Under the pieces are notes generated by a model that saw only the letters and a list, made by a program, of their open reading frames with translations, did not search any database and had not been told where the DNA came from. A DNA stretch of 64,000 bases from contig NSGV01000002.1 in assembly GCA_002300355.1 (NCBI GenBank), forward strand, positions 1,550,001 to 1,614,000. Reading direction: 5' to 3'. Positions 5,672-21,647 of the stretch are shown here, piece after piece. How positions within the stretch are numbered: position 1 is the stretch's first letter; each line of letters begins with the position of its first letter. The DNA comes from Streptomyces sp. TLI_235. Lineage in GTDB: Bacteria > Actinomycetota > Actinomycetes > Streptomycetales > Streptomycetaceae. The position numbers were made by a program, and so were the translations under genes.

Positions 5672-6175
5672 GTGCGCCTACCGCTGCTTGCACTGGTCGC
5701 GAAGGAGCCGGCGCACGGCTACGAGCTGAAGCAGGCCCTTGAGCAGACCTTCGGCGCGGCGTATCCTCAGGCGAACATCGGCCAGATTTACGTGACTCTG
5801 GGCCGACTTGAGCAGAATGGGCTGATTCAGGGCGAGGACGTCAGCGACTCCAAGCGCCCCAAAAGGGTGTACGAGATCACCGACGCGGGCCGTAAGGTCC
5901 TCGCCGACTGGTTCGCAGAACCGACCGAGGGGCCCAAGGTCCGCGACGAGTTCTTCACGAAGCTCGTACTCGCGCCGGCGACCGGCGTGACGGACCGGAT
6001 CACGCTGATCAACCAGCAGCGCCGCCACTACCTCAATACGATGCGCGGGCTGTCCAAGCTCGCCGCGTCCGAGGACCGGGACAACCGCATCGCGCACCTG
6101 ATGATCGAGGGAGCCATGCTGCACCTGCAGGCCGACCTCGACTGGCTGGAGCGCTGTCAGGAGGAACTCGAGTGA
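5672..6175 (+). CDS. PadR-family transcriptional regulator
   Basis: This is a 167-aa DNA-binding regulator. The N-terminal winged helix begins RLPLLALVAKEPAHGYELK, contains NIGQIYVTLGRLEQNGLI (recognition helix and wing region) and KRVYEITDAGRKVLADW. The C-terminal helical part (RITLINQQRRHYLNTM) is the PadR/Vir-type dimerisation domain. I prefer the GTG at 5672, preceded by GGAGGAGG, to the ATG at 5648, which lies inside that purine run and would add eight glycine-rich residues. The gene ends inside the start of the ABC ATPase gene (4-nt GTGA overlap), so regulator and exporter are co-translated. PadR proteins next to such exporters usually repress them and respond to a toxic ligand; that role is inferred. 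Confidence 0.9.
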   Translation: MRLPLLALVAKEPAHGYELKQALEQTFGAAYPQANIGQIYVTLGRLEQNGLIQGEDVSDSKRPKRVYEITDAGRKVLADWFAEPTEGPKVRDEFFTKLVLAPATGVTDRITLINQQRRHYLNTMRGLSKLAASEDRDNRIAHLMIEGAMLHLQADLDWLERCQEELE

Positions 6176-6948
6176 GACGTCCGGGCCCCTCCCCCGCCGC
6201 CGCACCACCCGCGGAGGCCATGCTCTGGGTCAAGGACCTCGTCAAGGTCCACCGCACCGCCGCGGCCGCCACCCACGCCGTCCGCCACGTCGACCTCCGG
6301 GTGGACCGCGGCGAGTTCGTCGCGGTGATGGGCCCCTCCGGTGCGGGCAAGTCCACCCTGCTGCACCTGCTCGGCGGCCTCGACCGGCCCGACAGCGGTG
6401 AGATCTGGCTCGACGGGCGACGCGTCGACCGCCTCGGCGAGGCCGGCTGGGCCGTACTGCGCCGGCGCTCGGTCGGCTTCGTGTTCCAGTTCTCCAACCT
6501 GGTCTCCAACATGACCGTGGCCGACAACGTCGAGCTGCCCGCACTGCTGGCCGGCGTCCCCGCCCGCCAGGCCCGCACCCGCCGCGAGGAACTGCTCGCC
6601 GACCTCGGCCTCGCCGACAAGGCCCGGGCCGCCTCCACCGCCCTCTCCGGCGGTGAGCAGCAGCGCGTCGCCCTTGCCAGGGCGCTGGTCAACCACCCCG
6701 GTCTGCTGCTCGCCGACGAACCCACCGGCAACCTGGACAGCCGCAACACCCGCGACGTGCTGCGCCTGCTCACCCGCTTCCACGGCCGCGGTTGCACGAT
6801 CGTGCTGGTCACCCACGACGCCCGCGTCGCCAGCACCGCGGACCGCGTGATCAGCATCTTCGACGGTGAGATAGCCGACGACGCGCCGGTGGAGCTGCCG
6901 CCCCGCCCGCCGCGGACGGTCGCCGACGTGGTCAGGCTGGGGGACTGA
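6172..6948 (+). CDS. ABC transporter ATP-binding protein (MacB/LolD type)
   Basis: This 258-aa ATPase energises the FtsX-like permease encoded 6 nt downstream. It has Walker A GPSGAGKST (about 54-62), the Q-loop region FVFQFSNLVSNMTVADNVE, signature LSGGEQQRVALARAL (about 157-171), Walker B LLLADEPTG (about 179-187) and the switch His in VTHD. The tight spacing and the lack of a binding protein indicate an exporter or mechanotransmission complex rather than an importer. The GTG start at 6172 overlaps the PadR stop. Substrate unknown. Confidence 0.93.
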   Translation: MRRPGPSPAAAPPAEAMLWVKDLVKVHRTAAAATHAVRHVDLRVDRGEFVAVMGPSGAGKSTLLHLLGGLDRPDSGEIWLDGRRVDRLGEAGWAVLRRRSVGFVFQFSNLVSNMTVADNVELPALLAGVPARQARTRREELLADLGLADKARAASTALSGGEQQRVALARALVNHPGLLLADEPTGNLDSRNTRDVLRLLTRFHGRGCTIVLVTHDARVASTADRVISIFDGEIADDAPVELPPRPPRTVADVVRLGD

Positions 6949-6954
6949 GAACCG

Positions 6955-9249
6955 ATGCGGGCCGTCATTCGCTGGATCGTCGCCGATCTCCGCACCCACA
7001 GGGGTCAGGCAGCGCTGGTCACCGTGGTCACCGCGGTCGTCGTCATGTCGCTCGTGCTGGCGAGCGCGCTGCTCCAGGACACGGCCAACCCGTGGCAGCG
7101 GATCTTCAAGCAGTCCAACGGCGCACACGTGTGGCTGCACGTCCGTCCCGGGGCCGACACGAGCGCCGTGACCCGCCTGGACGGCGTCGCCGCGGTCGCC
7201 GGCCCGTACCGGGCGGCCCCGGTCACCCTGGTGCGCAGCACCGGAAAGGTCTCCCTGGAACTGCGCGGGGTCGGCCCCGAGCCGTCGGGGGTGGCGCAGC
7301 CCGTGCTGCGCTCCGGCCACTGGCTCGACCCGGCGGAGCCGGACGGCATCGTGCTGGAGAGCTCCCTCGCGCGCTCGGTGTGGACGGGCAACGGCGACCA
7401 CGTCACCATCCGCAGCCTCGACGGCGTCTCCCACAGCGTCCGGGTGGTGGGCATCGCCGACAGCGCCGACCAGGGCGGGTTCCCCAACTGGACGCCCGGC
7501 CTCGGCTGGGCGCTGCCCGGCACCCTCGACGCGATCGAACCGAACGCCAACCACACCGAGGACGTCCTGGGGCTGCGCCTCGGCGACCCGCTCGCCACCG
7601 ACTTCACCGCCCAGCAGGCCGTCACCGCGCTCGGCGGCGACCAGGTCACCCAGGTCTCCACCTGGAACCAGGTACGGGCCTCCATGGACCAGGACAACCG
7701 GCTGCTCGGGCTCCTGCTCGGCACGTTCGGCCTGGCCGCCCTGCTGGCCGCGGCGCTCGCCGTGGCCGGCGCCGCCGGCAGCCGGGTGCTCGGCCAGGTC
7801 CAGGACATCGCCGTCCTCAAGGCGGTCGGCTTCACCCCGGGCCAGATCGTCCGGATGTTCCTCTACGAGCACACCGCGCTCGCGCTGGTCGGCATCGCCC
7901 TCGGTGCCGGCGCCGCCAGGCTGCTCGGCCCGCTGCTCCCCGGCCGGATCGGCGAGTCCATGGCCGTGTGGCAGACCCTGCCCGGGCACACCGGCGTCCT
8001 GGCCCTGACCGGCGCCGGCGCGGTGCTCAGCATCGCGCTGGCCACCGTCCTGCCGGCCTGGCAGGCAGGACGGGTGCCGCCGACGCCGGCCCTCCGGACG
8101 GACCTGACCGGCACCCGGATGTCCCGCCTGGCCCGCCTCGCCCTGCTGCTGCACCTGCCGCCGGCCCTCGTCCTGGGAGCCCGGGACGCCTTCCACCGTC
8201 CGCTCCGCGCCACCCTCACCGTGGGGCGGCTGGCCATCCCGATCCTCCTGATCACCGTCGCGCTGGGGAACTGGGCCACGCTCGACGGCTTCCAGCAACG
8301 CCCGGAGCGGGTCGGCCTGGCCGGCGTCCTGACCGCGCGGCCGAACGCCATCGGCGACGTCGCGGCCCGCAGCCTGCTGGAACGGACCTCCGGCGTCGCC
8401 GCCGCCTACCCCGGCGTCGAGGTCGAGGCCCTCGTCCCCGGCCAGACCCGCACCGTCACCGTGCGCGGCCTCGGCACCTCGGAGCGGCCCTACCCGTACC
8501 CCGTCACCGAGGGCCGGGGCATCCGCGAACGCGACGAGGCCGTCGCAGGGCAGGGCCTGCTCGACCTGATGCACGTCCACGTCGGGTCCTGGGTGCGGGT
8601 GACCGCCGGCGGCACCCCGCACATCCTCCACATCGTCGGCCGGACCATCCAGCCCGATCACAACGGGGAGATCCTCTCCGTCGGCCTCGACGCGCTGGGC
8701 GGGCCCGGCGGTCTACCCCTCCCCCAGTACTACAGCGTGGTCCCGCGCCCGGGCACCAGCCCGACCGCCCTCCGGGCCGAGCTGCTCGACACGGCGGCCG
8801 GACGGCTCGACGTGCGGCCGGTGGACAATCCCGCCGACCGGCTCGGCGTCCTCCGGCCGGTGACCGTCGGACTCGTCGCCGTCCTCGCCCTGATCGGCCT
8901 GTCCGAGCTCCTGACCGCGACCAGCGGCGGACTGCGCGACCACACCCGTGACCTCGGCGTCCTGCGGGCGATCGGCCTGACCCCGCGCCAGGTCACCGCA
9001 GTGATCGTCACCAGCACCGCGCTGCTCGCGCTGACCGCGACGGTCGCCGGAACGGCGCTGGGCGTGCTGCTGTCGGACCGGCTGATCAACCTCCAGGGCC
9101 GTACCAGCGGCGTGGGCGCCGGCATCGCGCAGAGCCCCTCCCCGGCGATGCTGTTCCTGCTCGCGGCCTCGGCCGTCACCGTCGCCGCGGTCGTCTCCGC
9201 AATCCCGGCGGCCCGTGCGACGTCCCGGACCCCGGTGTCCTACCTGTAA
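6955..9249 (+). CDS. ABC transporter permease, FtsX/MacB family, duplicated
   Basis: This 764-aa membrane protein is the partner of the preceding ATPase. Layout: one N-terminal helix (about 17-42), an extracytoplasmic MacB-like domain (about 45-240), a first FtsX core with three helices (about 250-375, including GQVQDIAVLKAVGFTPGQI), a second single helix (about 420-440), a second periplasmic part, and a second FtsX core (about 630-760, RDLGVLRAIGLTPRQV). The two FtsX cores, each with a [AV]LKAVG/VLRAIG coupling motif, show an internal duplication, which is common in actinobacterial exporters. It ends with a 10-nt tail-to-tail overlap with the convergent gene at 9240-9785. Likely substrates are lipids, peptides or antibiotics, but nothing here decides. 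Confidence 0.92.
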   Translation: MRAVIRWIVADLRTHRGQAALVTVVTAVVVMSLVLASALLQDTANPWQRIFKQSNGAHVWLHVRPGADTSAVTRLDGVAAVAGPYRAAPVTLVRSTGKVSLELRGVGPEPSGVAQPVLRSGHWLDPAEPDGIVLESSLARSVWTGNGDHVTIRSLDGVSHSVRVVGIADSADQGGFPNWTPGLGWALPGTLDAIEPNANHTEDVLGLRLGDPLATDFTAQQAVTALGGDQVTQVSTWNQVRASMDQDNRLLGLLLGTFGLAALLAAALAVAGAAGSRVLGQVQDIAVLKAVGFTPGQIVRMFLYEHTALALVGIALGAGAARLLGPLLPGRIGESMAVWQTLPGHTGVLALTGAGAVLSIALATVLPAWQAGRVPPTPALRTDLTGTRMSRLARLALLLHLPPALVLGARDAFHRPLRATLTVGRLAIPILLITVALGNWATLDGFQQRPERVGLAGVLTARPNAIGDVAARSLLERTSGVAAAYPGVEVEALVPGQTRTVTVRGLGTSERPYPYPVTEGRGIRERDEAVAGQGLLDLMHVHVGSWVRVTAGGTPHILHIVGRTIQPDHNGEILSVGLDALGGPGGLPLPQYYSVVPRPGTSPTALRAELLDTAAGRLDVRPVDNPADRLGVLRPVTVGLVAVLALIGLSELLTATSGGLRDHTRDLGVLRAIGLTPRQVTAVIVTSTALLALTATVAGTALGVLLSDRLINLQGRTSGVGAGIAQSPSPAMLFLLAASAVTVAAVVSAIPAARATSRTPVSYL

Positions 9250-9785
9250 TCCCTCTCGAGGCCGAGGGCCTCACATTCGTCTCCTGTGACGGTGTCCGCC
9301 CCCTCGCCTTCGAAGCCGGCGTAGCACTCGACTTCACTCCGGTGGTCGGCCCCGGCCACGACGGTGAATATCTTGAGCACCTTTTCACCGTTCATCCGGA
9401 CCCGCAGGCCTTCAAAAGGCGCAAAAGGCAGAGTGCACACCTTGCTCCACTGCCGGTCGCTTGCAAAGGTGATGACGCTGACCCGGACCGGAAAAGCCGC
9501 CCGCACCGCGCGTTCACCAGGGGGCCCACATTCCACGAAGCCGAGCGATGCGCACTTCTTCGCGGTGAACTCGCCCCCGTCATCGTCGACCACCACGCAT
9601 GTCACGGCACCGTCGGGATCGTCGACCAGCACCGTGACGACGTTCAGCACCTCGTAGGCGCCAATGCGAACACCCATGCCGGGGAACGGGGCGAAGGGCA
9701 GGTCCAGGTCCCGCACCCATGTCTTTCCTTCCGCCTCGATAACGAGACGCACCCCGAAGGGGTCAGCCTGATCCTGGCTTCGCAT
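9240..9785 (-). CDS. Hypothetical protein made of two tandem copies of one ~80-aa unit
   Basis: This 181-aa protein is one I do not recognise. It contains the same unit twice: repeat 1 (about residues 10-84) has LPFAPFPGMGVRI, EVLNVVTVLVDD, Cys63 and KKCASLGF; repeat 2 (about 97-176) has LPFAPFEGLRVRM, KVLKIFTVVAGAD, Cys154 and DECEALGL. The offset is about 90 residues. No signal peptide or membrane helix is visible, so it is probably cytoplasmic; the composition is acidic. Base composition is a little more A+T-rich than the neighbours. It is convergent with, and overlaps by 10 nt, the ABC permease gene. The start ATG at 9785 has AGAAG upstream. The conserved cysteines and beta-rich pattern suggest a small domain duplicated within the gene. 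Confidence 0.75.
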   Translation of the reverse strand: MRSQDQADPFGVRLVIEAEGKTWVRDLDLPFAPFPGMGVRIGAYEVLNVVTVLVDDPDGAVTCVVVDDDGGEFTAKKCASLGFVECGPPGERAVRAAFPVRVSVITFASDRQWSKVCTLPFAPFEGLRVRMNGEKVLKIFTVVAGADHRSEVECYAGFEGEGADTVTGDECEALGLERDYR

Positions 9786-9985: not shown

Positions 9986-11254
9986 TCACGCCATGCCGTG
10001 GGCCCGCTGGGCGCGCCGCGATGCGGAGTCGATCAGTACGGCGGCGAGGAGCACCCCGGCCGTGATCACGAACTGGAGCGACCCCTGGACGCCGACGAGC
10101 GCCACTCCGGAGGCGATCGACTGGATGACGAGGATGCCGACCAGCGCCGACCAGGTCGTGCCGCGTGCACCGAACAGGCTGGCGCCGCCGAGCACGGCTG
10201 CGGCGAGGGCGCTCAGCAGCAGGGTGGGTGAGCTGGAGGGCTGGATGGTCGCCGCCGTCGGCGAGGCCAGCAGCAGCCCTCCGACGGCAGCCGTCGCGCC
10301 CGAGATCGTGAAGACGGTGATCCGGACCACCGCCACGTTGATGCCGGTGCGGCGGGCGGCCTCGGGTGCGCTGCCGAGCGCGAAGACCTTCCGGCCGTAC
10401 GGCATGCGGCGCAGCAGGTAGTCCATGACGGCGACGGCCGCCAGGAAGATCAGCAGAGCCAGCGGCAGCCCCTGGAACGCGTCGAGCACGGCGGCGGCGG
10501 TGAACGCGACCGCCGCGAGCGCACCGGTGCGCAGCGCGATGACGCCGACGGGTGCGGCCGGCATTCCGGCGGCCCTGCGGCGTCGGCGGTCGCGGTAGGA
10601 GGTGAGGAGGAACGCCGCTGTGCCGAGGGCCGCGAGGCCGTACGTCGCGGCCGGTTCGCCGAGGTAGCTGGTGGTGAGCGAGGCGACCAGGCCGGTGTCG
10701 CTGAAGTCGAGGGTGCCGCTGGCTCCCAGCAGGTAGAGCATCAGGCCGTACCAGCCGAGCAGCCCGGCCAGGGTGACGGCGTACGCCGGCACCCCCGACT
10801 TGGCGTGGAGGAACCCCTGCAGGGCTCCGATGGCGGCGCCGCAGAGGACGGCGAGGAGGACGGCGACGCCCTCCGGGATGCCGGAGCGCACGTTCAGGAC
10901 GGCGAAGACGACGGTCGACAGTCCTGCCACCGAGCCCACCGACAGGTCGATCTCCCCGAGTGCCAGCACGAAGACGAGGCCCAGCGCGATCATCCCGGTG
11001 CCTGCCATGTCCACGCTGATGTGGGACAGGTTGCGGGGCGAGAGGAAGTTGCCGTTGAAGGCCTGGAACGCGAGCCAGAGCGGGAGCAGGCCGAGGATGA
11101 TCCAGGGCCGGCCGATCTCTCCGCGCTGCATCATGAGCTTGAGCCACTGCCCGCTGCGCCGCAGTGCCCGTGCGCGCCCCGGTCCGGCCGTCCGGCCTGC
11201 TGCGTCGTGGGTGCCCCGGACGGGGCCTGCCTCGGGTGTTTCCAAGCGGCTCAC
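9986..11254 (-). CDS. Sugar ABC transporter permease (CUT2, XylH/RbsC-like)
   Basis: This 422-aa polytopic permease of a monosaccharide importer contains the characteristic CUT2 stretches FVLALGEIDLSVGSVAGL (about residues 95-112), AVLCGAAIGALQGFLHAKSG with PAYAVTLAGLLGW, LLRRMPYGRKVFALGSAPEA and a C-terminal block ALAAAVLGGASLFGARGT. The first ~50 residues are hydrophilic. I chose the GTG at 11254, which overlaps the ATPase stop by 4 nt (GTGA). It is the last gene of a four-gene set: phosphatase, binding protein, ATPase, permease. The nearest named relatives are xylose transporters (XylH); the actual sugar is inferred only by similarity. Confidence 0.92.
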   Translation of the reverse strand: MSRLETPEAGPVRGTHDAAGRTAGPGRARALRRSGQWLKLMMQRGEIGRPWIILGLLPLWLAFQAFNGNFLSPRNLSHISVDMAGTGMIALGLVFVLALGEIDLSVGSVAGLSTVVFAVLNVRSGIPEGVAVLLAVLCGAAIGALQGFLHAKSGVPAYAVTLAGLLGWYGLMLYLLGASGTLDFSDTGLVASLTTSYLGEPAATYGLAALGTAAFLLTSYRDRRRRRAAGMPAAPVGVIALRTGALAAVAFTAAAVLDAFQGLPLALLIFLAAVAVMDYLLRRMPYGRKVFALGSAPEAARRTGINVAVVRITVFTISGATAAVGGLLLASPTAATIQPSSSPTLLLSALAAAVLGGASLFGARGTTWSALVGILVIQSIASGVALVGVQGSLQFVITAGVLLAAVLIDSASRRAQRAHGMA

Positions 11255-12048
11255 AGACCCGCCTCCTCCCACTCCGCCGCCTCCGCCGCACGCATCGTGA
11301 CGGCGTTCTCCGTGGTGCCGATGACGGAGGAGACGATCTGTTCCTGGGACGTCATGTTGACGTCGTAGAAGCCGTTGTTGCGGCCGTGGCGCAGGACGGC
11401 CACCCAGTCCGCGACGGCCTTGACGTCGCTGAGGTTGTGGCTGACGAGCAGCACGCCGAGACCTCGGTCGCGGAGCTGCTCGATCAGGTCGAGGAACTGC
11501 CCGGTCTGCCTGATACCCAGGGCCGCCGTGGGTTCGTCGAGGAGTACGAGGTCCGGTTCGCCGAGCAGGGCGCGGCAGATCGCGAGGCTCTGCCGCTGTC
11601 CCGCCGAGAGCGTGGACACGGGAACGCGCAGGTCGGGGATGTGAACGGAGAGGATGTCCATCAGTTCGTGGGTGCGGCGCTCCATCTCCAGCTCGTCCAG
11701 TCCCAGGCCGCGGCGGAGCTCACGGCCGAGGAAGATGTTCGCGACCGCGTCGAGGGCGTCGCACAGGGCGAGGTCCTGGTACACCGTCGCGATGCCCAGT
11801 GCCTGCGCCTCATGAGGGCGGGTGAGCCGGACCTCCCGGCCCTGCCACTCGATGACGCCACCGTCGGCGGGCTCCACGCCCGCGATCAGTTTGACGAGCG
11901 TGGACTTCCCCGCACCGTTGTCGCCCATCAAGGCGACCACCTCGCCCGCGTTGACCTCGAGCTGTACGTCGGTGAGTGCCTGGACCGCGCCGTACCGTTT
12001 GGAGACCGCGTGCAGCGACAACAGGGGCGGGTCTGCGGTACGTGCCAT
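11251..12048 (-). CDS. Sugar ABC transporter ATP-binding protein (CUT2, single ABC domain, XylG-like)
   Basis: This 265-aa ATPase has Walker A GDNGAGKST (about 42-50), signature LSAGQRQSLAICRAL (about 146-160), Walker B LVLLDEPTAAL (about 169-179) and switch VSHN. Most CUT2 ATPases (RbsA, XylG of enterobacteria) are ~500-aa double ABC proteins. This is a single-domain version, as is common in actinobacterial xylose-type systems. It lies 65 nt after the binding-protein gene and overlaps the permease start by 4 nt. The ATG at 12048 has AAGGAG seven nt upstream. Confidence 0.92.
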   Translation of the reverse strand: MARTADPPLLSLHAVSKRYGAVQALTDVQLEVNAGEVVALMGDNGAGKSTLVKLIAGVEPADGGVIEWQGREVRLTRPHEAQALGIATVYQDLALCDALDAVANIFLGRELRRGLGLDELEMERRTHELMDILSVHIPDLRVPVSTLSAGQRQSLAICRALLGEPDLVLLDEPTAALGIRQTGQFLDLIEQLRDRGLGVLLVSHNLSDVKAVADWVAVLRHGRNNGFYDVNMTSQEQIVSSVIGTTENAVTMRAAEAAEWEEAGL

Positions 12049-12113
12049 CTGCTTTCTCCTTCACCGCCGGATCGTCCGGGGCAACGCGCGATGCGAGGGC
12101 TGCGGGGCCGTCG

Positions 12114-13232
12114 TCAGTCGAGCCCGGCGTTCCGGCACGCGGCTGCGAGTTCGGCGGTGCATATCTGGTGGACGGTGTACATCCCGTCCGCGACGACGGT
12201 GAGCTTGATGTTCTCGGCGGTCACGGCGACAGGGGTGAGCAGCACGGCGGGGACGCTCTTGGTCGTGAAGCTGTCGACCGTGGTCTTCGCGAGCCCGTCG
12301 AGGTTCCTGCCCCGGCCGAGCGCCACGGCCATCTGCGCTGCCGTGTCGGCCTCCGCCTCGTAGGGCTTGTAGACGGTCATGTACTGTTCGCCCGTCACGA
12401 GGCGCCGTAGGGCGGGAAGTTCGGCGTCCTCGCCGACCACCGGGGGCAGCGGGTCGACGTGGGCGGCCTTGAGGGCGGCGACGGCCCCGGCCGCGATCAC
12501 GTCGTCGGCGGCGTAGACACCGTCGATCGTGTCCGGGCCGGCGCTCGCGATGGCGGCGGACGTCGCCGCGTACGCGTCCTGCTTGTTGGGGGCCGGGATC
12601 GTGAACGCGCGCGCCGTGTTGAGCTGGACCCCGCCGCTCTTGAGGATGGGCATGGCCACGCTGGTCGACAGGGGGAACGAGGCCGGGGAATTCTTGAACG
12701 GGCTGGCGAGCCAGAGGACCTGGCCGCCCTGCGCCTTCGCCCCCATGGCCCTGAGCAGCGCCTGGGCCTGGAGCCGCCCGATGGCGTACGTGTCGAAGGA
12801 GACGAAGCCGGAGATCGGGCCGCCGGCGAGCCGGTCGTAGGCGATCACCGGAACTCCTGCGTCCCGGGCCTGCTGCACCGATCGCCGCATCGCCCCGGCG
12901 TCGACGGCATCGAAGATGAGGACCCTGACCCCGCTGATCAGCATGGTGTCCAACTGATGGCGCTGGGCGGAGGCGTCGCCCTGGGCGTTGGCGTACTTCA
13001 CCGTGCAGGCCCCGCAGAGCTCCTTGATCCTCTTCTCGATGAGCGGCTTGTCGAAGTTCTGGTAGCGGGTGGCGTTGTTGTCGGGCATCAGCACGCCGAC
13101 GCTGAAGCCGCCCGACCCCGCGGCACCCGCCGGCAGGTCGGCCGAACCGCCGGTCTGCGCGCAGGCGGCGAACACCAGGGCCGCGGAGACCGCCACGGCC
13201 AGGGCGGCGGAGCGGTGCTGTCGGATCCTCAC
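12114..13232 (-). CDS. Sugar-binding lipoprotein (CUT2, XylF-like)
   Basis: This 372-aa substrate-binding protein of the periplasmic-binding-protein 4 family has a lipobox near FAACAQ (Cys about 24). Family marks are GVLMPDNNATRYQNFDKPL, LISGVRVLIFDAVDAGAM, AGVPVIAYDRL, DGVYAADDVIAAG and GEDAELPALRRLVTGEQYMT followed by VYKPYEAEADTAAQMAV, close to the XylF pattern. The GTG start at 13232 overlaps by 4 nt the stop of the GAF/PAS/SpoIIE phosphatase gene, so its translation is coupled to that of a signalling protein. The likely ligand is a pentose or related monosaccharide. Confidence 0.92.
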   Translation of the reverse strand: MRIRQHRSAALAVAVSAALVFAACAQTGGSADLPAGAAGSGGFSVGVLMPDNNATRYQNFDKPLIEKRIKELCGACTVKYANAQGDASAQRHQLDTMLISGVRVLIFDAVDAGAMRRSVQQARDAGVPVIAYDRLAGGPISGFVSFDTYAIGRLQAQALLRAMGAKAQGGQVLWLASPFKNSPASFPLSTSVAMPILKSGGVQLNTARAFTIPAPNKQDAYAATSAAIASAGPDTIDGVYAADDVIAAGAVAALKAAHVDPLPPVVGEDAELPALRRLVTGEQYMTVYKPYEAEADTAAQMAVALGRGRNLDGLAKTTVDSFTTKSVPAVLLTPVAVTAENIKLTVVADGMYTVHQICTAELAAACRNAGLD

Positions 13233-15793
13233 GGCGACGACTCCCCGTCCCGGTCCGCACGGCCGGAGCCCTGGGCGCCGGGTGCCCCGCGTGCCGGCAG
13301 GGCGATTTCACTCCACACCTGTTTGCCGCCGCCGACCGGCACCGAGCCCCAGGCAGTGGACATCGCCTCCACGAGCATGATCCCGCGACCACCCGTCGAC
13401 TCCCAGTCCACGATGCGCGGCTTGACCGGTGCCCGCGGCAGCGAGTCGGTCACGGCGATGCGCAGCCGGTCCCCGGCCAGCGTCAGGTCCAGGTGGACAT
13501 CGCCCTGTGTGTGCACGACGGCATTCGTGACCAGCTCGGAGACGACGAGCAGGACCACGTCGGCCTCCTCCGTCACCCCCCAGGAGCGCACCGTGCGTGC
13601 GGTGAAACGGCGTGCGTGCATCACGGCATCGGGAAGGCGCCATGCCCGCCAGCTCGCCCGGACCGGCCGCAGCCCCATCCCGTCGTAGCGCAGGAGCAGC
13701 AGAGCCACGTCGTCGTGCCGGTCGGCGCCGCTGATCAGTTCGTCGGCCACCCGTCCGACGTCCGAGAAGTCGGCGGCACCGAGCACGTCACGGACCCGCC
13801 GTGTCCCGCCGTCCTCGGCCTGCTCCGCGGACACCACCAGGCCGTCCGTCACGAGAGCCAGCACCGCGCCGGGCGAGATGTCGACCACCGTGATGGGGAA
13901 GTCCGCATCCTCGACGACACCCAGCGGCGGACCGCCCGCCACGTCCACCTCCTCGGTGGTGCCGTCGGGGAGGCGCAACAGGGGAGCCGGATGGCCCGCC
14001 CGGACGAACCAGGCGATCCCCTCCTCCATGTTCACGGAGACGTAGCAGCAGGTGGCGAAGAGATCCGTCTTCATGCCGACGAGAAGGCGGTTGGCCCGGG
14101 CGAGGACGACGTCGGGCGGATGGCCCTCCGCCGAGTAGGCCCTGACCGCGGTGCTCACCTGGCCCATGATCGTCGCGGCCTCGGCACTGTGCCCCTGCAC
14201 GTCCCCGATGACGAGCGCGAGTTGGTTGTTGGAGATGATCACGTCGTACCAGTCGCCGCCCATCTCAAGGCCCGCCGTGCCGGGCAGGTAGCGGGCCACG
14301 GCCACGGCGCCGGGCAGCGACGGCAGCTCGCGGGGCAACAGGCTGGTCTGGAGCACGCGAACGAGTTCACGCTCGGTGTCGATCGCCTGGGCACGGGCCA
14401 GGGCCTCCGCCGCGCGTCCCGCGGTCACCGCGAGCCAGGACCGCTCCTGGGCGGTGACCCGGCGCGGAGCGTCCCAGCCGGCGAGGCAGGCTCCGACCAC
14501 CCGGCCCTCGGCGGACAACGGCAGCACGGCGAGGCCACCCGGGCCGACACCCGCCAGGCCCGGTTCGAGAGCGCCGCCCGCGGGCCACACGGTCGTCCGG
14601 CCCTCGCCCAGCACGGCGTCCAGAGCGGGGGAGGTCGAGAGGGAGAGTTCGAGCCACTCGGTGCGCCCGTCCGGCCGCCAGGTCCTCGGCCACGTCCCGG
14701 GTGTCGGCGGGTCCAGCGCGGTGACCGCCAGCCGGTCGCCGCGGAGGACGGCGAACGCCAGCCGGTCGGCGTTCAGCCGGGTGCCGAGGCTGTCCACCAC
14801 GATGCGCCCCACGTCCTGCACCGTCGTCGCCACGGCCAGGGCGGCGGTGAGTTCCTCCACCCGGGCGATCTCGGCAGGCGTGGCACCCTGCGGCATCACG
14901 TCGGCGACCACACCCAGGACGAGCCCCGGTCTGCCCCTGTCGTCGAGCCGTACCCGGCACCGCAGGTGCAGCCAGCGCGGCTCACCGGAGGACCGGCGGG
15001 CACGGAAGACCAGATCCCGCACCTCGGAGGTCGCTCCGCTGCGCCCCACGATGGACATGAAGGTGGGGAGGTCGTCCAGCAGCGTGTGGGCGATCAGGCT
15101 CTCCACGTGCCCGTCGAAGGTGCCCGGGTCGACGTCGAAGAGTTCGAGCATCGTCGCGTCCGTGTGGATGCGGCCGGTGCCGCGGTCGAGGGTGAAGGTA
15201 CCGATGCGGTCCCAGGGCAGCCGGTGGCCCCGGAGTGCGCCGCGCCCCGTCCGCTCGCCGCCGTCCACGTCCATGTACGTGGACACGAGGTCGGCGTACA
15301 GCTCCAGGAGGGTCCGCCGGTCGAGGACCGGCCCCGCCGGGTCGTCCCACACGACGACCAGGCACCCCGGCGCGGCACCCCCTGCCGCCGGCGGGACGGT
15401 CGTCAGGGGCATCACGCCCATCGAGGCGCCGAGGCCCGCCTCGCCGTAGGACACGACCTGCGCGGTGTCCAGCCAGAGCGGCCGGTTCGAACGGACCGCG
15501 TCGGCAAGGGGAGAGCGACCGCTCAGCGCGCAGACGGCAGGGAGGCCGTACCTGCCGGTGGCCGCACCGGCGGCTTCGGTGAGTCTCAGCTCGTGAGCGT
15601 CCGGATCCACCAGGTAGGCGGCGGCCTGGTCCGCGCCGGCCACCGCACGGAAGCGCTCTACTCCGCTTCGCAGCGGTCCGAGGTCCATGAGGTTCTCGAC
15701 CCAGCCGTTCGACGAGCCGCCGTCGCGACTCGCGCTCAGGGCGCCGTCGCTCACATTCCTGCCCATCGACACACCCCACCGCTCGTGGTACAT
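13229..15793 (-). CDS. Multi-domain signalling phosphatase: GAF-PAS-GAF-PP2C(SpoIIE)-HATPase
   Basis: This 854-aa cytoplasmic regulator has no membrane helix. Order read from sequence: GAF-like (about 30-180), PAS (about 195-310, DRIGTFTLDRGTGRIHTDA and RRSSGEPRWLHLRCRV), second GAF (about 318-470), SpoIIE/PP2C phosphatase (about 480-705, with VARYLPGTAGLEMGGDWYDV, LALVIGDVQGHSAEAA and the distal HDDVALLLLRYD metal site) and a C-terminal anti-sigma-type ATPase (about 715-840; SELVTNAVVHTQG, GGRGIMLVEAM). Such proteins control partner-switching cascades: the kinase part binds a sigma factor or phosphorylates an anti-anti-sigma and the phosphatase reverses it. The stop overlaps the start of the sugar-binding gene. 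Start: ATG 15793, or ATG 15766, which has GGTGGGG upstream. Being first gene of a sugar-import operon is unusual. Confidence 0.93.
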   Translation of the reverse strand: MYHERWGVSMGRNVSDGALSASRDGGSSNGWVENLMDLGPLRSGVERFRAVAGADQAAAYLVDPDAHELRLTEAAGAATGRYGLPAVCALSGRSPLADAVRSNRPLWLDTAQVVSYGEAGLGASMGVMPLTTVPPAAGGAAPGCLVVVWDDPAGPVLDRRTLLELYADLVSTYMDVDGGERTGRGALRGHRLPWDRIGTFTLDRGTGRIHTDATMLELFDVDPGTFDGHVESLIAHTLLDDLPTFMSIVGRSGATSEVRDLVFRARRSSGEPRWLHLRCRVRLDDRGRPGLVLGVVADVMPQGATPAEIARVEELTAALAVATTVQDVGRIVVDSLGTRLNADRLAFAVLRGDRLAVTALDPPTPGTWPRTWRPDGRTEWLELSLSTSPALDAVLGEGRTTVWPAGGALEPGLAGVGPGGLAVLPLSAEGRVVGACLAGWDAPRRVTAQERSWLAVTAGRAAEALARAQAIDTERELVRVLQTSLLPRELPSLPGAVAVARYLPGTAGLEMGGDWYDVIISNNQLALVIGDVQGHSAEAATIMGQVSTAVRAYSAEGHPPDVVLARANRLLVGMKTDLFATCCYVSVNMEEGIAWFVRAGHPAPLLRLPDGTTEEVDVAGGPPLGVVEDADFPITVVDISPGAVLALVTDGLVVSAEQAEDGGTRRVRDVLGAADFSDVGRVADELISGADRHDDVALLLLRYDGMGLRPVRASWRAWRLPDAVMHARRFTARTVRSWGVTEEADVVLLVVSELVTNAVVHTQGDVHLDLTLAGDRLRIAVTDSLPRAPVKPRIVDWESTGGRGIMLVEAMSTAWGSVPVGGGKQVWSEIALPARGAPGAQGSGRADRDGESSP

Positions 15794-16115
15794 GCCGGGC
15801 GCCCAGGCAGGTTGACGCCCACTGTGCGGTCACACCTTCGGCGACGAGCCTCCTTCCCGCTCTCGCCGGTGCCGGTTCCGCGTCGTGCGCTTCCGGTGTC
15901 CGGAAGGATGCGACATCCTCTCCCCGGAACGGGAGAAGACTTATACCAGCATGCCACCGGGATGTCGTGCGGGCCTCTCCGACTCTCCCGCTCCGCTGCC
16001 CAGTTCGAGCAGCCCCCGCCCCGGTGGCGGCACCGGGGCGGGAGCCCGCGTGCTTCAGGTGTCACATGAGTCTCCGTCGTCGACTCGCTGGTCCGCCCGG
16101 CGGGTCGTGGTGGTG
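15794..16115. other. Intergenic region upstream of the phosphatase-sugar importer operon
   Basis: These 322 nt lie between the stop of the orphan SBP (16116) and the phosphatase gene, both on the minus strand. They must hold the phosphatase promoter. The only AT-rich spot is TATAAG on the minus strand (15955-15950), a possible -10 without a good -35. I see no gene here. Confidence 0.4.
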
Positions 16116-17420
16116 TCAGGGGGTGGCGGCCAGCGCGGCGGTGATGTCGCTCTGGGCCTTCTTGAGGGCGTTGGCCGGGGTGCCGGTGCCGGTGAGGGCG
16201 GCGTTGAGGTCGGTGTAGATGGCCTTGCTGACGTTGGCGTAGTCGGCGGTCCAGGTGGGGCGGGTGACCATGCGGTTCATGAAGGCGACCTGGAAGACGG
16301 GGTTGGCGTTCTGGACGTCGAGGTCGTCGAGGACGCCGCTGCGGGCGGGCAGCAGGCCGCCCTTGACGGCGAGGATCTTCTGGGCTTCGAGGCCGGTCAT
16401 CCACCGGACGAAGGCGAGATCGGCGTCGATGTTCCTGCTGTGCGGGTTGACGTAGAGGCCCCAGCCGCCGACGGTGGTGCGGCCGCGGCCGATCTGGCCC
16501 TCGAAGGCCGGGAGGTTGACGACACCGACCTTGCCGCTGATCTTCGAGGCGGGGTTCTCCCGGGCATCGTTGTAGCCGTAGGCCCAGTTGCGCAGGAAGG
16601 CGCTCTGGCCGCTGTTGAACAGGGCCTGGGACTCGTCCTCCTTGAAGGTGGTGATCGCCTTGGGGGCGATGGCGTCGTCGATCAGGCCCTTCATGTAGGT
16701 GAGGGCTTTCAGGTTCTCGGGGCTGTCGATCTGGGCGGTACCGCCGTGGTAGTCGACGCTTCTGCCGCCGCTGTCGGCGGAGAACTCGGTCCAGCCGCAG
16801 GTGAGGCCCTCGTAGCCGGCCCACTGGGCGGAGAAGCCGTACTTGACGAGACCGGCGTCCTGGAGCTGCTTCGCCTCCTGCCGGAGCTGCTCCCAGGTGG
16901 TCGGGGCGGGCAGGCGGGCCTTGTCGAGGAGGTCCTTGCGGTAGAAGAGGAAGCCGTTGTCGGTGAAGAGCGGGGCGGCCATGATCTTGCCGTCGTACTG
17001 GAGGCCGTCGAGCAGAGTCCGGTCGAAGGACTGCCAGTAGGCGCCGTCGAGGTGCTCGCTCAGCGGAAGGGCGAGTCCTTCCCTGCCGAACTGGGCCGGC
17101 CAGACGACATCGCCGTTGTAGACGTCGATCTCGTCGGAACCCCGCAGGATGCTGCCGGTGATGGCGGCGCGATTCCGGTCGGTGTCGGAGGGGACGTCCT
17201 TGACGGTGACGTGGATGGCGGGGTGGACCTTCTCGAAAGCCTTGACGAGGGTCTTGCGGAGGTCGACGTCGTTGCGGCCGAACGTGCTCGAGTACCAGGT
17301 GATGGTTCCGCTCGGCTCGCTGCCCGGGCTCGTGCTGTGCGGGGCGGCGCAGGCGCTGCCGGTCACGGCGAGCACCGCGGTGGCGGCCATGGCGGTGAGG
17401 CGGGTTCTGGTGGTGCGCAC
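16116..17420 (-). CDS. Orphan sugar-binding lipoprotein (CUT1, LpqY/ThuE type), ROK-linked
   Basis: This 434-aa binding protein has lipobox VTGSAC (Cys 24). Typical marks: TWYSSTFGRNDVDLRKTLV, EIDVYNGDVVWPAQFGREG, FTDNGFLFYRKDLLDK, FKEDES (259-264) and FLRNWAYGYNDA (about 275-286). It shares the FKE[ED]ES...FLRNW pattern and overall layout with the SBP at 4233-5504, so the two are paralogous. I chose the GTG at 17420, preceded by GGAG; the frame stays open to 17489, but the extra residues are arginine-rich and precede the signal peptide. It has no permease or ATPase neighbour and is divergent from the ROK regulator at 18007-19224, which probably controls it. Confidence 0.9.
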   Translation of the reverse strand: MRTTRTRLTAMAATAVLAVTGSACAAPHSTSPGSEPSGTITWYSSTFGRNDVDLRKTLVKAFEKVHPAIHVTVKDVPSDTDRNRAAITGSILRGSDEIDVYNGDVVWPAQFGREGLALPLSEHLDGAYWQSFDRTLLDGLQYDGKIMAAPLFTDNGFLFYRKDLLDKARLPAPTTWEQLRQEAKQLQDAGLVKYGFSAQWAGYEGLTCGWTEFSADSGGRSVDYHGGTAQIDSPENLKALTYMKGLIDDAIAPKAITTFKEDESQALFNSGQSAFLRNWAYGYNDARENPASKISGKVGVVNLPAFEGQIGRGRTTVGGWGLYVNPHSRNIDADLAFVRWMTGLEAQKILAVKGGLLPARSGVLDDLDVQNANPVFQVAFMNRMVTRPTWTADYANVSKAIYTDLNAALTGTGTPANALKKAQSDITAALAATP

Positions 17421-18006
17421 GGGGACTCCAGGTGCGAAGGCGCGCCCGGTGCGGGCGGCAAGGGGGCGGCGTGACCGTGGAACGGGCATCCGGTGGCCAC
17501 GCCTCGGGGAACGGGGGTGGGGGGTGGGGGTGGGGGTTCACCACGGCCGGCCGGCGGCGCAGTCCCCGCGTGCCGGGCGGCGCCCTCCGCGGCTCTGGGG
17601 TGCGGCCGTGTACGGGCATGCCCGTCGGCCGCGTGGGCGCCTGACCGGCTGGCTGAGAGGCTGGCACTATTAATTTCACGTGTCAAGAAATAAGATGGAA
17701 ATCGCCGTGACGCACCCGACTGCTCGGCCTAGCGCGGTAGTGTCTCGGCGATGGGTGCGGCGCGTACGGAGGTCCTCGACCTCCCCGCCGGCCTGCTACT
17801 GGGCCCTCGACCGGGGCAGCGGGACCTGTCGCGTGGAGCTGATTCGCGGCGTTATCGAAATGTCCCCGACATTTTCCGGCATCAAGCAATTATCGCCAGC
17901 ATGGCACGGAGGCCCATCGGAGTACGGCAGCGTTCGAAGAAACGGGCAGACTGGGGCCCGTGGCGCCGATCGGTGGCCGAAGCAGTCCAGTGGAGGCAAG
18001 CCAACC
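17421..18006. other. Divergent intergenic region SBP / ROK regulator
   Basis: These 586 nt hold a very G-rich run (about 17510-17540), the AT-rich inverted repeat at 17673-17691 and the long leader of the ROK gene. The ROK reading frame stays open leftwards to 17680, but that extension is not ROK-like and precedes the ribosome-binding site, so I treat it as leader. No other gene is supported. Confidence 0.5.
17673..17691. promoter_or_regulatory. Candidate ROK operator: inverted repeat ATTTC-N9-GAAAT with TTGACA
   Basis: ATTTC (17673-17677) and GAAAT (17687-17691) form an inverted repeat with a 9-nt spacer inside the longest AT-rich patch of the region. The spacer contains TGTCAA, i.e. TTGACA on the minus strand, a possible -35 of the SBP gene, though no well-spaced -10 follows. 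The position between a ROK gene and its divergent SBP gene supports an operator. Confidence 0.4.
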
Positions 18007-19224
18007 GTGACCGTCCAGACGCCCGCCGGCCGTGCGGTGCCCCGGTTGCTCGCGCCCGCCCGTTCGGCCGTCGATCCGATCGGGCAGCGCACCCGGGCGG
18101 ATGTGTTCGCCGCGATCCTCACCGCAGGGCCGCTGTCGCGTGTGGAGGTCGCCCAGCGGCTGGAGCTGTCGCAGTCGACCGTGACCAAGGTGGTGAACCC
18201 TCTGATGGAGGCGGGCTACCTGGTCGAGTCCACCGCCGAGCCCGCGGGTGCGGTCGGGCGGCCGCGCCGGATGCTGCGGGTGCGCAAGGAACTGCGGCTG
18301 GCCGCCGGAGTGAAGATCGGCCCGTCGAAGGTGACCGCGGTCCTCACCGACCTGGGGGCGCAGGAGCTCGCCCGCCGGGAGCAGCCACTGGCCGACCACC
18401 GTGTCGAGACGGCGGTGGCGGCGACGGTGGAGGCCGTGCGGCACCTGGTGGCGTCGGTGCCGGGGGCCTCGGAGCGGATGCTGGGTGTGGGCGTGGGCCT
18501 GAACGGCCACGTGGACCCCACGAGCGGGGTGTGCCACTACTCGGCGCTGATGGACTGGCACGACGTGGACGTGGCCGGTCCGCTGGCCGAGGCGTGCGGG
18601 ATGCCGGTGGCGGTGAGCAACGACGTGAACACCCTGGTGGTGGCCGAGCAGTGGTTCGGGCACGGCCGGAACACCGACTCGTTCGCGGTCGTGACGGTGG
18701 GCGCGGGCGTGGGCTGCGGCCTGCTGCTGGGCGGGCGCCCCTACCTGGGGCGCAGTGGCCTGGCGGGCGAGTTCGGCCATGTCCCCCTCGACCCGGCAGG
18801 GCCGGTGTGCAGCTGCGGGAACGTCGGCTGCCTGGAGGCGCTCGCGTCCTATGACGCGGTACTGCGGCGGCTCCGGGAGGCGGGGCTGGCGGACTGCGAG
18901 GACATCGACCAGGCGGTGGTGCTTGCGCGCTCGGGCCGCGGGCCGGACGCGAAGGCGGCGCTGGCGGCGTTCGCGGCGGCCGGCGAGGCGCTGGGGCGGG
19001 GGCTCGCGGGGCTGTGCAACCTGCTGAACCTGGAGAAGATCGTCCTGGCGGGCGAGGGGGCGACGGCTCAGGATCTGTTCGGTCCGGCGCTGGTGGCGGC
19101 GCTGCGCGAGCACGCGTTCTCCACGGCGGCGGCCGACTGCGAGCTGGTGGTCGACGCGGTCACCGACGACCTGTGGGCGCGGGGCGCGGCCTGCCTGGTG
19201 ATCCGGGACGCGGTCGGAGCCTGA
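18007..19224 (+). CDS. ROK-family transcriptional regulator
   Basis: This 405-aa sugar-responsive repressor has an N-terminal winged helix-turn-helix at about residues 33-72 (LSRVEVAQRLELSQSTVTKV then VVNPLMEAGYL), followed by the ROK kinase-like fold: GVGVGLNGHVDPTSGVCHYS, NDVNTLVVAEQWFGHG, VTVGAGVGCGLLLGG and the zinc motif GEFGHVPLDP...CSCGNVGCLEAL. ROK regulators bind a sugar or sugar phosphate to release DNA. The GTG at 18007 has GGAGG 10 nt upstream and gives the family's usual N terminus. Divergent orientation from the orphan SBP indicates it controls that gene and possibly a permease encoded elsewhere. Confidence 0.92.
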   Translation: MTVQTPAGRAVPRLLAPARSAVDPIGQRTRADVFAAILTAGPLSRVEVAQRLELSQSTVTKVVNPLMEAGYLVESTAEPAGAVGRPRRMLRVRKELRLAAGVKIGPSKVTAVLTDLGAQELARREQPLADHRVETAVAATVEAVRHLVASVPGASERMLGVGVGLNGHVDPTSGVCHYSALMDWHDVDVAGPLAEACGMPVAVSNDVNTLVVAEQWFGHGRNTDSFAVVTVGAGVGCGLLLGGRPYLGRSGLAGEFGHVPLDPAGPVCSCGNVGCLEALASYDAVLRRLREAGLADCEDIDQAVVLARSGRGPDAKAALAAFAAAGEALGRGLAGLCNLLNLEKIVLAGEGATAQDLFGPALVAALREHAFSTAAADCELVVDAVTDDLWARGAACLVIRDAVGA

Positions 19225-20053: not shown

Positions 20054-21647
20054 ATGCCCCATCCACAGACCATCGACCGGCGGGGCACCCCCGCGGCACC
20101 GGGCCGGGCGCAGCGCGCCGCGGACTGGGCGGACGGACGGCTGGGGCTCTACGCCCTCGCCAAGTCGAACATCCGCAAGGTCTTTCCGGACCACTGGTCG
20201 TTCATGCTCGGCGAGATATGCCTCTACAGCCTCGTGGTGATCATCCTGACCGGCGTCTATCTGACGCTGTTCTTCAAGCCGAGCATGGCCGAGACCGTGT
20301 ACCACGGTCCGTACGCCCCGCTCAACGGCATCCGGATGTCCGGGGCGTACGCCTCGACCATGGACATCAGCTTCGAGGTGCGCGGCGGTCTGCTGATCCG
20401 TCAGATCCACCACTGGGCTGCTCTGGTGTTCGTGGCCGCGATGTTCGTCCACATGATGCGGGTGTTCTTCACCGGGGCGTTCCGCAAGCCGCGCGAGATC
20501 AACTGGCTGTTCGGGTTCCTGCTGCTCTTCCTCGGCATGTTCGACGGTTTCATGGGCTACTCGCTGCCGGACGACCTGCTGTCCGGTACCGGTATCCGCT
20601 TCATGGAGGGCGCGATCCTGGCGGTGCCGCTGGTCGGCACGTACCTGCAGATGTTCCTGTTCGGCGGTCAGTTCCCCGGCACCGACATCGTGCCGCGGTT
20701 CTTCACCGTCCACGTGCTGCTGATCCCGGGCATCACCTGGGCCTGCTGGTGGCCCACCTGATCCTGGTCTTCCACCACAAGCACACCCAGTGGGCCGGGC
20801 CCGGCCGGACCGAGGAGAACGTGATCGGCATGCCGCTGATGCCGGTCTACCTGGCCAAGGCCGGCGGGTTCTTCTTCCTGGTGTTCGACGTCATCGCGGC
20901 CGTCTCCGCGATCGCCACGATCAACCCGATCTGGGCGTACGGCCCGTACCGCCCCGACCAGGTGTCCACCGACGCCCAGCCCGACTGGTACATGGGCTTC
21001 GCGGAGGGCCTGATCCGGGTGATGCCGGGCTGGGAGGTCCGGGCCTGGGGCCACACCCTCAACCTCGGCATCCTGATCCCCTTCCTGGCCTTCCCCGCCG
21101 TGCTCGGCGCGATCGCCGGCTATCCCTTCCTGAAGCGTGGCTCACCCGCGACCGGCGCGAGGGCCACCTGCTGGACCGGCCGCGCAACGCCCCGGTGCGG
21201 ACCGCCCTCGGCGCGGCCTGGATCAGCCTCTACCTGGTGCTGCTGGCCGGCGGGGGCAACGACCTGATCGCCACCCACCTGCACCTGTCGCTCGACTCGA
21301 TCACCTACGTCGTCCGTCTCGGCTGCTTCGTCGTCCCGGTGCTGACCTTCTTCGCCGCCAAGCGGTGGTGCCTCGGGCTGCAGCGCCGCGACCGGGACAA
21401 GGTGCTGCACGGCCGGGAGAGCGGCATCGTCACGCGCCTGCCGCACGGCGAGTACACCGAGTCGCACACCCCGCTGCCCCCCGCCGACCTGCACCGGCTC
21501 ACCGCCCACCACCAGCACCGGCCGGCCGACGGGGGCACCCGGCTCCACGCCGCCCTCTCCCGTACCTGGTTCGGCCCGGGCGGCCAGATCGCCAAGCCCA
21601 CCGCCGAGGAGTACCGCGAGGTCACCGACGGCTCCGGACACCACTGA
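20054..21647 (+). pseudogene. Cytochrome b subunit (QcrB-like paralogue), two 1-nt deletions
   Basis: The reconstructed protein is about 531 aa, close to actinobacterial QcrB, the cytochrome b of the bc1 complex. Segment 1 (20054 to ~20734) has [40 protein letters not shown] with haem-ligand histidines, and ends HVLLIPGI. Segment 2 (~20737 to ~21132, next frame) has [19 protein letters not shown] and PDWYMGFAEG, the quinol-site PEWY region. Segment 3 (~21136 to 21647) has LLDRPRNAPVRTALGAAWIS. A single nucleotide is missing near 20735 (expected ATC-A-C-CTG) and near 21133. As read, translation stops at 20761. It lacks qcrA/qcrC neighbours, so it is a stand-alone paralogue. The deletions may be real decay or assembly errors. 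ATG 20054 follows GGGAG. Confidence 0.85.

Follow-up and report, generated by a model that had tools for sequence, protein, structure and literature searches.

Organization of the locus

The stretch analysed here (hereafter, the window) comprises 64,000 nucleotides of contig NSGV01000002.1 from Streptomyces sp. TLI_235. It contains a set of four minus-strand genes that encode a SpoIIE-type protein phosphatase and the three components of an ATP-binding cassette (ABC) sugar importer, and all four lie where the original prediction had placed them. The genes and the signals around them are as follows.

13229..15793, minus strand: GAF-PAS-GAF-SpoIIE(PPM)-HATPase_c_2 protein phosphatase, 854 amino acids, ATG at 15793
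12114..13232, minus strand: XylF-like sugar-binding lipoprotein (Peripla_BP_4), 372 amino acids, GTG start
11251..12048, minus strand: XylG-like ATPase with one ABC domain (ABC_tran), 265 amino acids
9986..11254, minus strand: XylH-like permease (BPD_transp_2), 422 amino acids from the GTG at 11254
13227..13246, minus strand: phosphatase/XylF junction, with a GGGGAG ribosome-binding-like site, an 8-nt spacer and a GTGA stop/start overlap
15940..15951, minus strand: -10-like element TGCTGGTATAAG (TATAAG), a weak candidate promoter some 145 nt upstream of the phosphatase gene
16013..16043, minus strand: perfect G+C-rich inverted repeat TCCCGCCCCGGTGCCGCCACCGGGGCGGGGG, between the upstream sugar-binding protein gene and the phosphatase gene

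The stop codon of the phosphatase gene and the GTG of xylF share four nucleotides (GTGA, 13232-13229). The plus strand reads TCAC at 13229-13232, which is GTGA on the minus strand, so that the overlap claimed for this junction is real and can be read directly. The GGGGAG that precedes the XylF start is contained within the phosphatase gene. The XylG and XylH genes also overlap by 4 nt, and the gap between the XylF and XylG genes is 65 nt. With genes for PF13407, PF00005 and PF02653 proteins in one operon, the importer is of the CUT2 type.

Neither a terminator nor a promoter is obvious between the phosphatase and XylF genes. Upstream, the strong hairpin at 16013-16043 is not followed by a T run and is therefore missing from the output of the terminator scan; it likely separates the upstream sugar-binding protein gene from the phosphatase transcription unit. 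A consensus -35 element was not found for the candidate promoter at 15940-15951. With the hairpin and TATAAG upstream and no obvious signal between the phosphatase and XylF, the DNA sequence suggests that the phosphatase gene opens the operon, as had been proposed. An alternative ATG at 15766 would give a protein of 845 residues and is as plausible a start as 15793, since alignments with orthologues begin only at residue ~41-47.

The phosphatase

Pfam domains recognised in the phosphatase are PAS_3 (residues 209-296), GAF_2 (322-465), SpoIIE (522-703) and HATPase_c_2 (720-826). The SpoIIE match (PF07228) scores 152.4 bits against a cut-off of 25 and spans profile positions 2-191 of 192, and the HATPase_c_2 match (PF13581) scores 42.7 bits against 27.4. 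The predicted GAF-PAS-GAF-SpoIIE-HATPase architecture is borne out for the PAS, second GAF, SpoIIE and HATPase domains; the first GAF domain (~40-175) was not recognised in the window protein itself, and is recognised in the orthologue at L163 (GAF_2 at 8-133; loci in other genomes are referred to by such handles). In an alignment of 53 relatives the metal-binding residues Asp514, Asp531, Asp650 and Asp694/695 are invariant, as are the HATPase N-box residues Glu753/Asn757 together with Asp783, Gly801, Gly802 and Gly804. With both the metal-binding and the ATP-binding residues invariant, the phosphatase and HATPase activities are probably both alive.

No clear membrane helix was found in the phosphatase by hydropathy in 19-residue windows; the highest value, 1.78, is the only one above 1.6 and falls inside the SpoIIE domain. 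The nearest sequence in the PDB is that of Rv1364c (PDB code: 3ke6), with an E value of 7e-25 over residues 490-813. There is no STAS domain: the 854-residue chain stops after the HATPase domain, and the protein is thus not a SpoIIE-HATPase-STAS fusion of the Rv1364c type. The stretch preceding the SpoIIE domain (about residues 455-490) is comparable to the linker of RsbU-type phosphatases, and is putatively helical.

The importer

The XylF-like protein matches Peripla_BP_4 with an E value of 4.7e-45, carries the lipobox FAAC, and has as its nearest PDB entries 4ywh, XylF (3m9w) and ChvE (3urm). Its score with the XylF equivalog model TIGR02634 is 164.5 bits, below the cut-off of 389.55. The ATPase, with its one ABC domain, reaches 179.8 of the 723.65 bits set for the XylG equivalog TIGR02633 and aligns only with the first half of the XylG/YtfR profiles; for the permease the best NCBIfam model is GguB (197 bits, cut-off 450). 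As all equivalog cut-offs were missed, the importer is of the XylF/ChvE-like monosaccharide type and its sugar is not assignable. The earlier description as XylFGH-like thus holds for the type of importer and does not extend to XylFGH identity. A single ABC domain is also found in relatives within the Streptomycetaceae, including those linked to ROK genes; XylG of Escherichia coli has two.

Conservation of the pairing in the Streptomycetaceae

The association of phosphatase and importer was followed by two separate routes in 150 Streptomycetaceae genomes. The query of the first was the N-terminal half of the phosphatase only, and was therefore blind to the transporter; it gave 50 matches in 43 genomes. 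The second route consisted of a XylF scan of the same genomes followed by tblastn of the flanks, and found, for 15 of the 29 top XylF relatives (window excluded), a same-strand phosphatase gene immediately preceding that of XylF. These flanking phosphatases are 60-70% identical over the C-terminal half, and most of the remaining relatives have a ROK regulator instead.

Genes surrounding the phosphatases were called with a codon-usage script, and a phosphatase tree was then built. Every linked case falls within one clade of 30 members (SH-aLRT support 100), 27 of which lie beside XylF or XylGH; counted from the N-terminal scan alone, the clade holds 25 linked and 3 unlinked matches. The 23 family members outside this clade all belong to unlinked lineages. 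Linked cases occur in seven GTDB genera (codes g1, g5, g7, g8, g10, g14 and g15), and neighbours other than F, G and H (the XylF-, XylG- and XylH-type genes) recur in no more than 3-4 loci, mostly from sibling genomes. A search of the collection with peptide patterns returned three loci only. Of 70 genomes of the genus, 68 contain at least one strong relative of the phosphatase, and L059 is from the only one of these 70 that has an orthologue. Outside the family, the N-terminal query found no match in 246 genomes of the class.

The pairing is non-accidental, and the linkage has a single origin in the phosphatase tree. The original prediction held that the phosphatase and importer belong together, and this is sustained by their retention in 27 of 30 clade members across seven genera and several gene orders. 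The prediction passes the refutation test set with it: in a broad sample the two are not generally separated in related strains, and no obvious promoter or terminator splits them here. A functional link between the phosphatase and the importer is accordingly regarded as highly probable.

A natural decoupled case is provided by L164, where a phosphatase of the linked clade (5737-8127) has no importer beside it; its distal neighbours, judged by eye, resemble those at L097 and include pectate-lyase-like and methyltransferase-like proteins. Many of the unlinked sister phosphatase genes (L090, L168, L174, L176, L177, L178, L181, L187 and L188) are divergent from a gene for a protein of ~860-910 amino acids. 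The protein at L090 (5068-10346), the only one compared with Pfam, consists of RamC_N, kinase and LanC-like domains, as in a class III lanthipeptide synthetase. Two proteins of ~600 amino acids follow, and several sister loci also precede genes of dTDP-rhamnose size. The ~860-910-residue protein, lanthipeptide synthetase-like at L090, is a second recurrent partner for the phosphatase family. The possibility that the L090 phosphatase lies beside another ABC importer was ruled out, as its neighbours are dTDP-sugar genes and the RamC-like synthetase.

Gene order and translational coupling

The usual order is S-F-G-H, where S denotes the phosphatase gene. It is replaced by F-G-H-S at L059 and by S-F'-F-G-H at L093; at L163 F is absent and the order is S-G-H, and at L119 the phosphatase is divergent from F-G-H. 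A further arrangement is found at L097, L107, L108, L109 and L124, in which the phosphatase is coupled by a 4-nt overlap to a lone F', and a second F is divergent together with G and H (at L107, with H alone). In the XylF tree the lone F' proteins group with the phosphatase-coupled F proteins of L093 and L095 in a separate subclade, away from the F of the divergent transporters. Across lineages of the L093, L095, L097 and L107 type, what stays translationally tied to the phosphatase is the binding protein.

A 4-nt overlap (ATGA or GTGA) is present at 12 of 24 orthologous S-F junctions, in comparison to 15% of other same-strand neighbours at these loci (Fisher p ~1e-4, indicative only, as the rows are related). 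The F-G junction never overlaps within the same operons. One such overlap would be ordinary; its recurrence at the S-F junction is not. In the 460 nt around the phosphatase start, the 10-mers CAGAATCGCA, CCTCCCGTCC and GCATGTCCGC are shared by L093, L095, L097, L107, L108, L109 and L124, and also by L119, and may represent an operator of the phosphatase-F' operon in close genomes.

A phosphatase at the position of a repressor

The XylF tree is split with high support (100/99). On one side a ROK gene mostly precedes xylF; the other side, to which the window XylF belongs, comprises proteins associated with the phosphatase or with neither regulator. The window genome also carries a ROK-F-G-H operon (L126). 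Among class members outside the family, most of the sampled XylF relatives have ROK genes beside them, and their flanks showed no SpoIIE gene. Given the ROK genes and the absence of the phosphatase in this outside sample, the linkage appears to be an invention of the Streptomycetaceae in which the phosphatase stands at the repressor position of the sister operons. The phosphatase may have supplanted the repressor there, or have been added to a copy that lacked one.

The known counterpart of the sister operons is the Rok7B7-xylFGH system of S. coelicolor and S. avermitilis, in which Rok7B7 acts as a xylose-responsive repressor of xylFGH (PMC8966007). The importer there is of the same type, with a single-domain ATPase, and in both systems a regulatory gene immediately precedes xylF. 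The regulator is, however, a DNA-binding ROK repressor in the one and a PPM phosphatase with an ATPase domain in the other, and the window XylF lies on the opposite side of the 100/99 split. The two arrangements offer a natural comparison: importers of one type are controlled by a repressor in the first clade and accompanied by a phosphatase in the second, and this genome has both.

Comparison with known phosphatases

In RsbU, activation occurs as a helical linker becomes ordered and the phosphatase domains dimerise, and the same mode of activation has been proposed for phosphatases bearing GAF or PAS domains, including OsaC and Rv1364c (PMC12143880). The window protein resembles RsbU, RsbP and RsbZ of the general stress response (PMC12143880) in its PF07228 PPM domain with catalytic aspartates and in having PAS or GAF sensors on a linker, putatively helical in the window protein. 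It differs in that the system has no RsbT or RsbQ partner and no RsbV/RsbW/sigma operon, in its added C-terminal HATPase domain and in sharing an operon with a sugar importer. Rv1364c of Mycobacterium tuberculosis shares the succession of a SpoIIE domain and an RsbW-like HATPase, but carries its own C-terminal STAS domain, whereas in the window protein no further domain follows the HATPase and GAF domains are present. A third counterpart, likened by description, is OsaC of S. coelicolor, also a PPM phosphatase, for which GAF and PAS sensor domains are described (PMC12143880). OsaC serves a SigB-type response and is not known to be linked to a transporter.

In the literature covered by our search, which left subscription journals largely aside, no report was found of a SpoIIE phosphatase paired with a sugar ABC importer, nor do the SpoIIE passages of a pan-genome synteny paper mention the pair. 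The phosphatase type and the importer type are both known; what appears to be new is the probable dedication of a phosphatase of the partner-switching type to an ABC sugar importer.

A possible link between sugar uptake and partner switching

The absence of a STAS gene near the phosphatase, noted in the original prediction, agrees with a scan of the first 24 kb of the window, in which a hidden Markov model made from the STAS domains of this genome found none. Within the fetched flanks of the linked loci the sole STAS gene is at L100, ~8 kb away. A genome-wide search with STAS_2 returned 25 matches at E <= 0.001, of which 22 exceed the family cut-off and none lies in the window. One of the matches, at L011, looks like BldG, a core anti-anti-sigma factor of streptomycetes, and is a candidate lead to the target.

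From these sequences we infer a link of the module to a partner-switching sigma cascade, and for its ligand, target and direction of control we infer the following scheme. A cytosolic PPM phosphatase of the SpoIIE/RsbU type would be dedicated to a XylF-type importer and translated together with the binding protein. Its GAF-PAS-GAF sensors would read the imported sugar, a product of the sugar, or the working state of the transporter, and the signal would reach the phosphatase dimer by way of the putative helical linker at about residues 455-490. The phosphatase would then dephosphorylate a STAS anti-anti-sigma protein encoded elsewhere, its own HATPase domain possibly serving as the opposing kinase, and sugar supply would thereby set sigma-factor output. 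As a whole, the explanation we favour, with moderate confidence, is that of an importer-dedicated phosphatase that signals uptake to a partner-switching protein whose gene lies at another place in the genome. For its parts, there is a good probability that the target is a STAS protein, and the balance leans moderately towards sugar or transport being the input rather than transporter expression being the output. A fuller version, in which a one-protein phosphatase/kinase switch reads the importer physically or metabolically, has a sugar-binding F' of its own, and feeds nutrient uptake into partner-switching control of stress and development, is offered only tentatively; ABC importers would in that case act as receptors for sigma-factor cascades.

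Several observations weigh against the favoured explanation. No target, ligand or phenotype can be named for the phosphatase, and sigma-B-type promoters are not enriched upstream of the operons (1 of 27, versus 0.56 expected). The clade members at L162, L164 and L165 have lost the importer neighbour, L164 keeping its phosphatase at what is apparently the same locus, and the unlinked sister clade works without a XylF neighbour, which indicates that the enzyme needs none in principle. The binding pocket of the window XylF also departs from that of E. coli XylF at several positions, and pocket positions conserved among XylF relatives differ in the window protein, an example being Asn to Asp in the ASND motif.

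The phosphatase might instead regulate expression of the importer via a sigma factor, performing the task of a displaced ROK protein, with sugar sensing as feedback only. It does stand where the sister operons have their ROK repressor and is mostly first in its operon, as local regulators often are. However, the conserved upstream sequences are without an enriched sigma-B-type promoter, and at L097, L107, L108, L109 and L124 it is the lone F', not the operon of the transporter, to which the phosphatase is tied; we consider this account unlikely. In a further mechanism the transport complex would be a co-sensor: the binding protein and importer would be the true receptor, and the phosphatase would sense the conformation of XylG/XylH by touching them, as with transporter-linked sensors in other bacteria. 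The binding protein stays the coupled partner even where G and H are elsewhere or divergent, and this, like the S-G-H locus L163, fits a physical complex. Such contact is putative, the phosphatase is soluble, and its cytosolic GAF/PAS domains suffice as sensors; we consider this mechanism slightly less probable than regulation of the importer. Finally, a mobile or locally shuffled phosphatase gene could have come to stand before an importer by chance or hitch-hiking, given that streptomycetes have many SpoIIE-domain genes (116 first-look candidates in this genome) and that 4-nt overlaps are common (15%). The linkage of 27 of 30 clade members in seven genera, with differing surroundings and in several orders, and rough adjacency odds of ~0.001 per genome (~4 XylF genes among ~8000) make that origin very improbable.

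Streptomycetes have very many SpoIIE-type phosphatases and many STAS proteins; the signals read by most of these phosphatases are not known, and linkage to an importer supplies one candidate input. If the favoured explanation is true, carbon supply would be connected to the switches for sporulation, stress and antibiotic production along a path that bypasses the Rok7B7 repressor.

Neighbouring genes in the window

Positions 9240-9785 (minus strand), flanked by the importer operon on one side and an FtsX-type gene on the other, encode a 181-amino acid protein with no Pfam or NCBIfam match. The gene upstream of the phosphatase (16116-17489, minus strand) encodes a lone CUT1-type sugar-binding protein with no adjoining permease or ATPase genes, and is divergent from a ROK regulator gene (18007-19224, plus strand). 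Further along, adjoining a TetR-type gene, a 235-amino acid protein (20054-20761, plus strand) covers no more than the N-terminal portion of cytochrome b (PF13631) and appears to be truncated or specialised.

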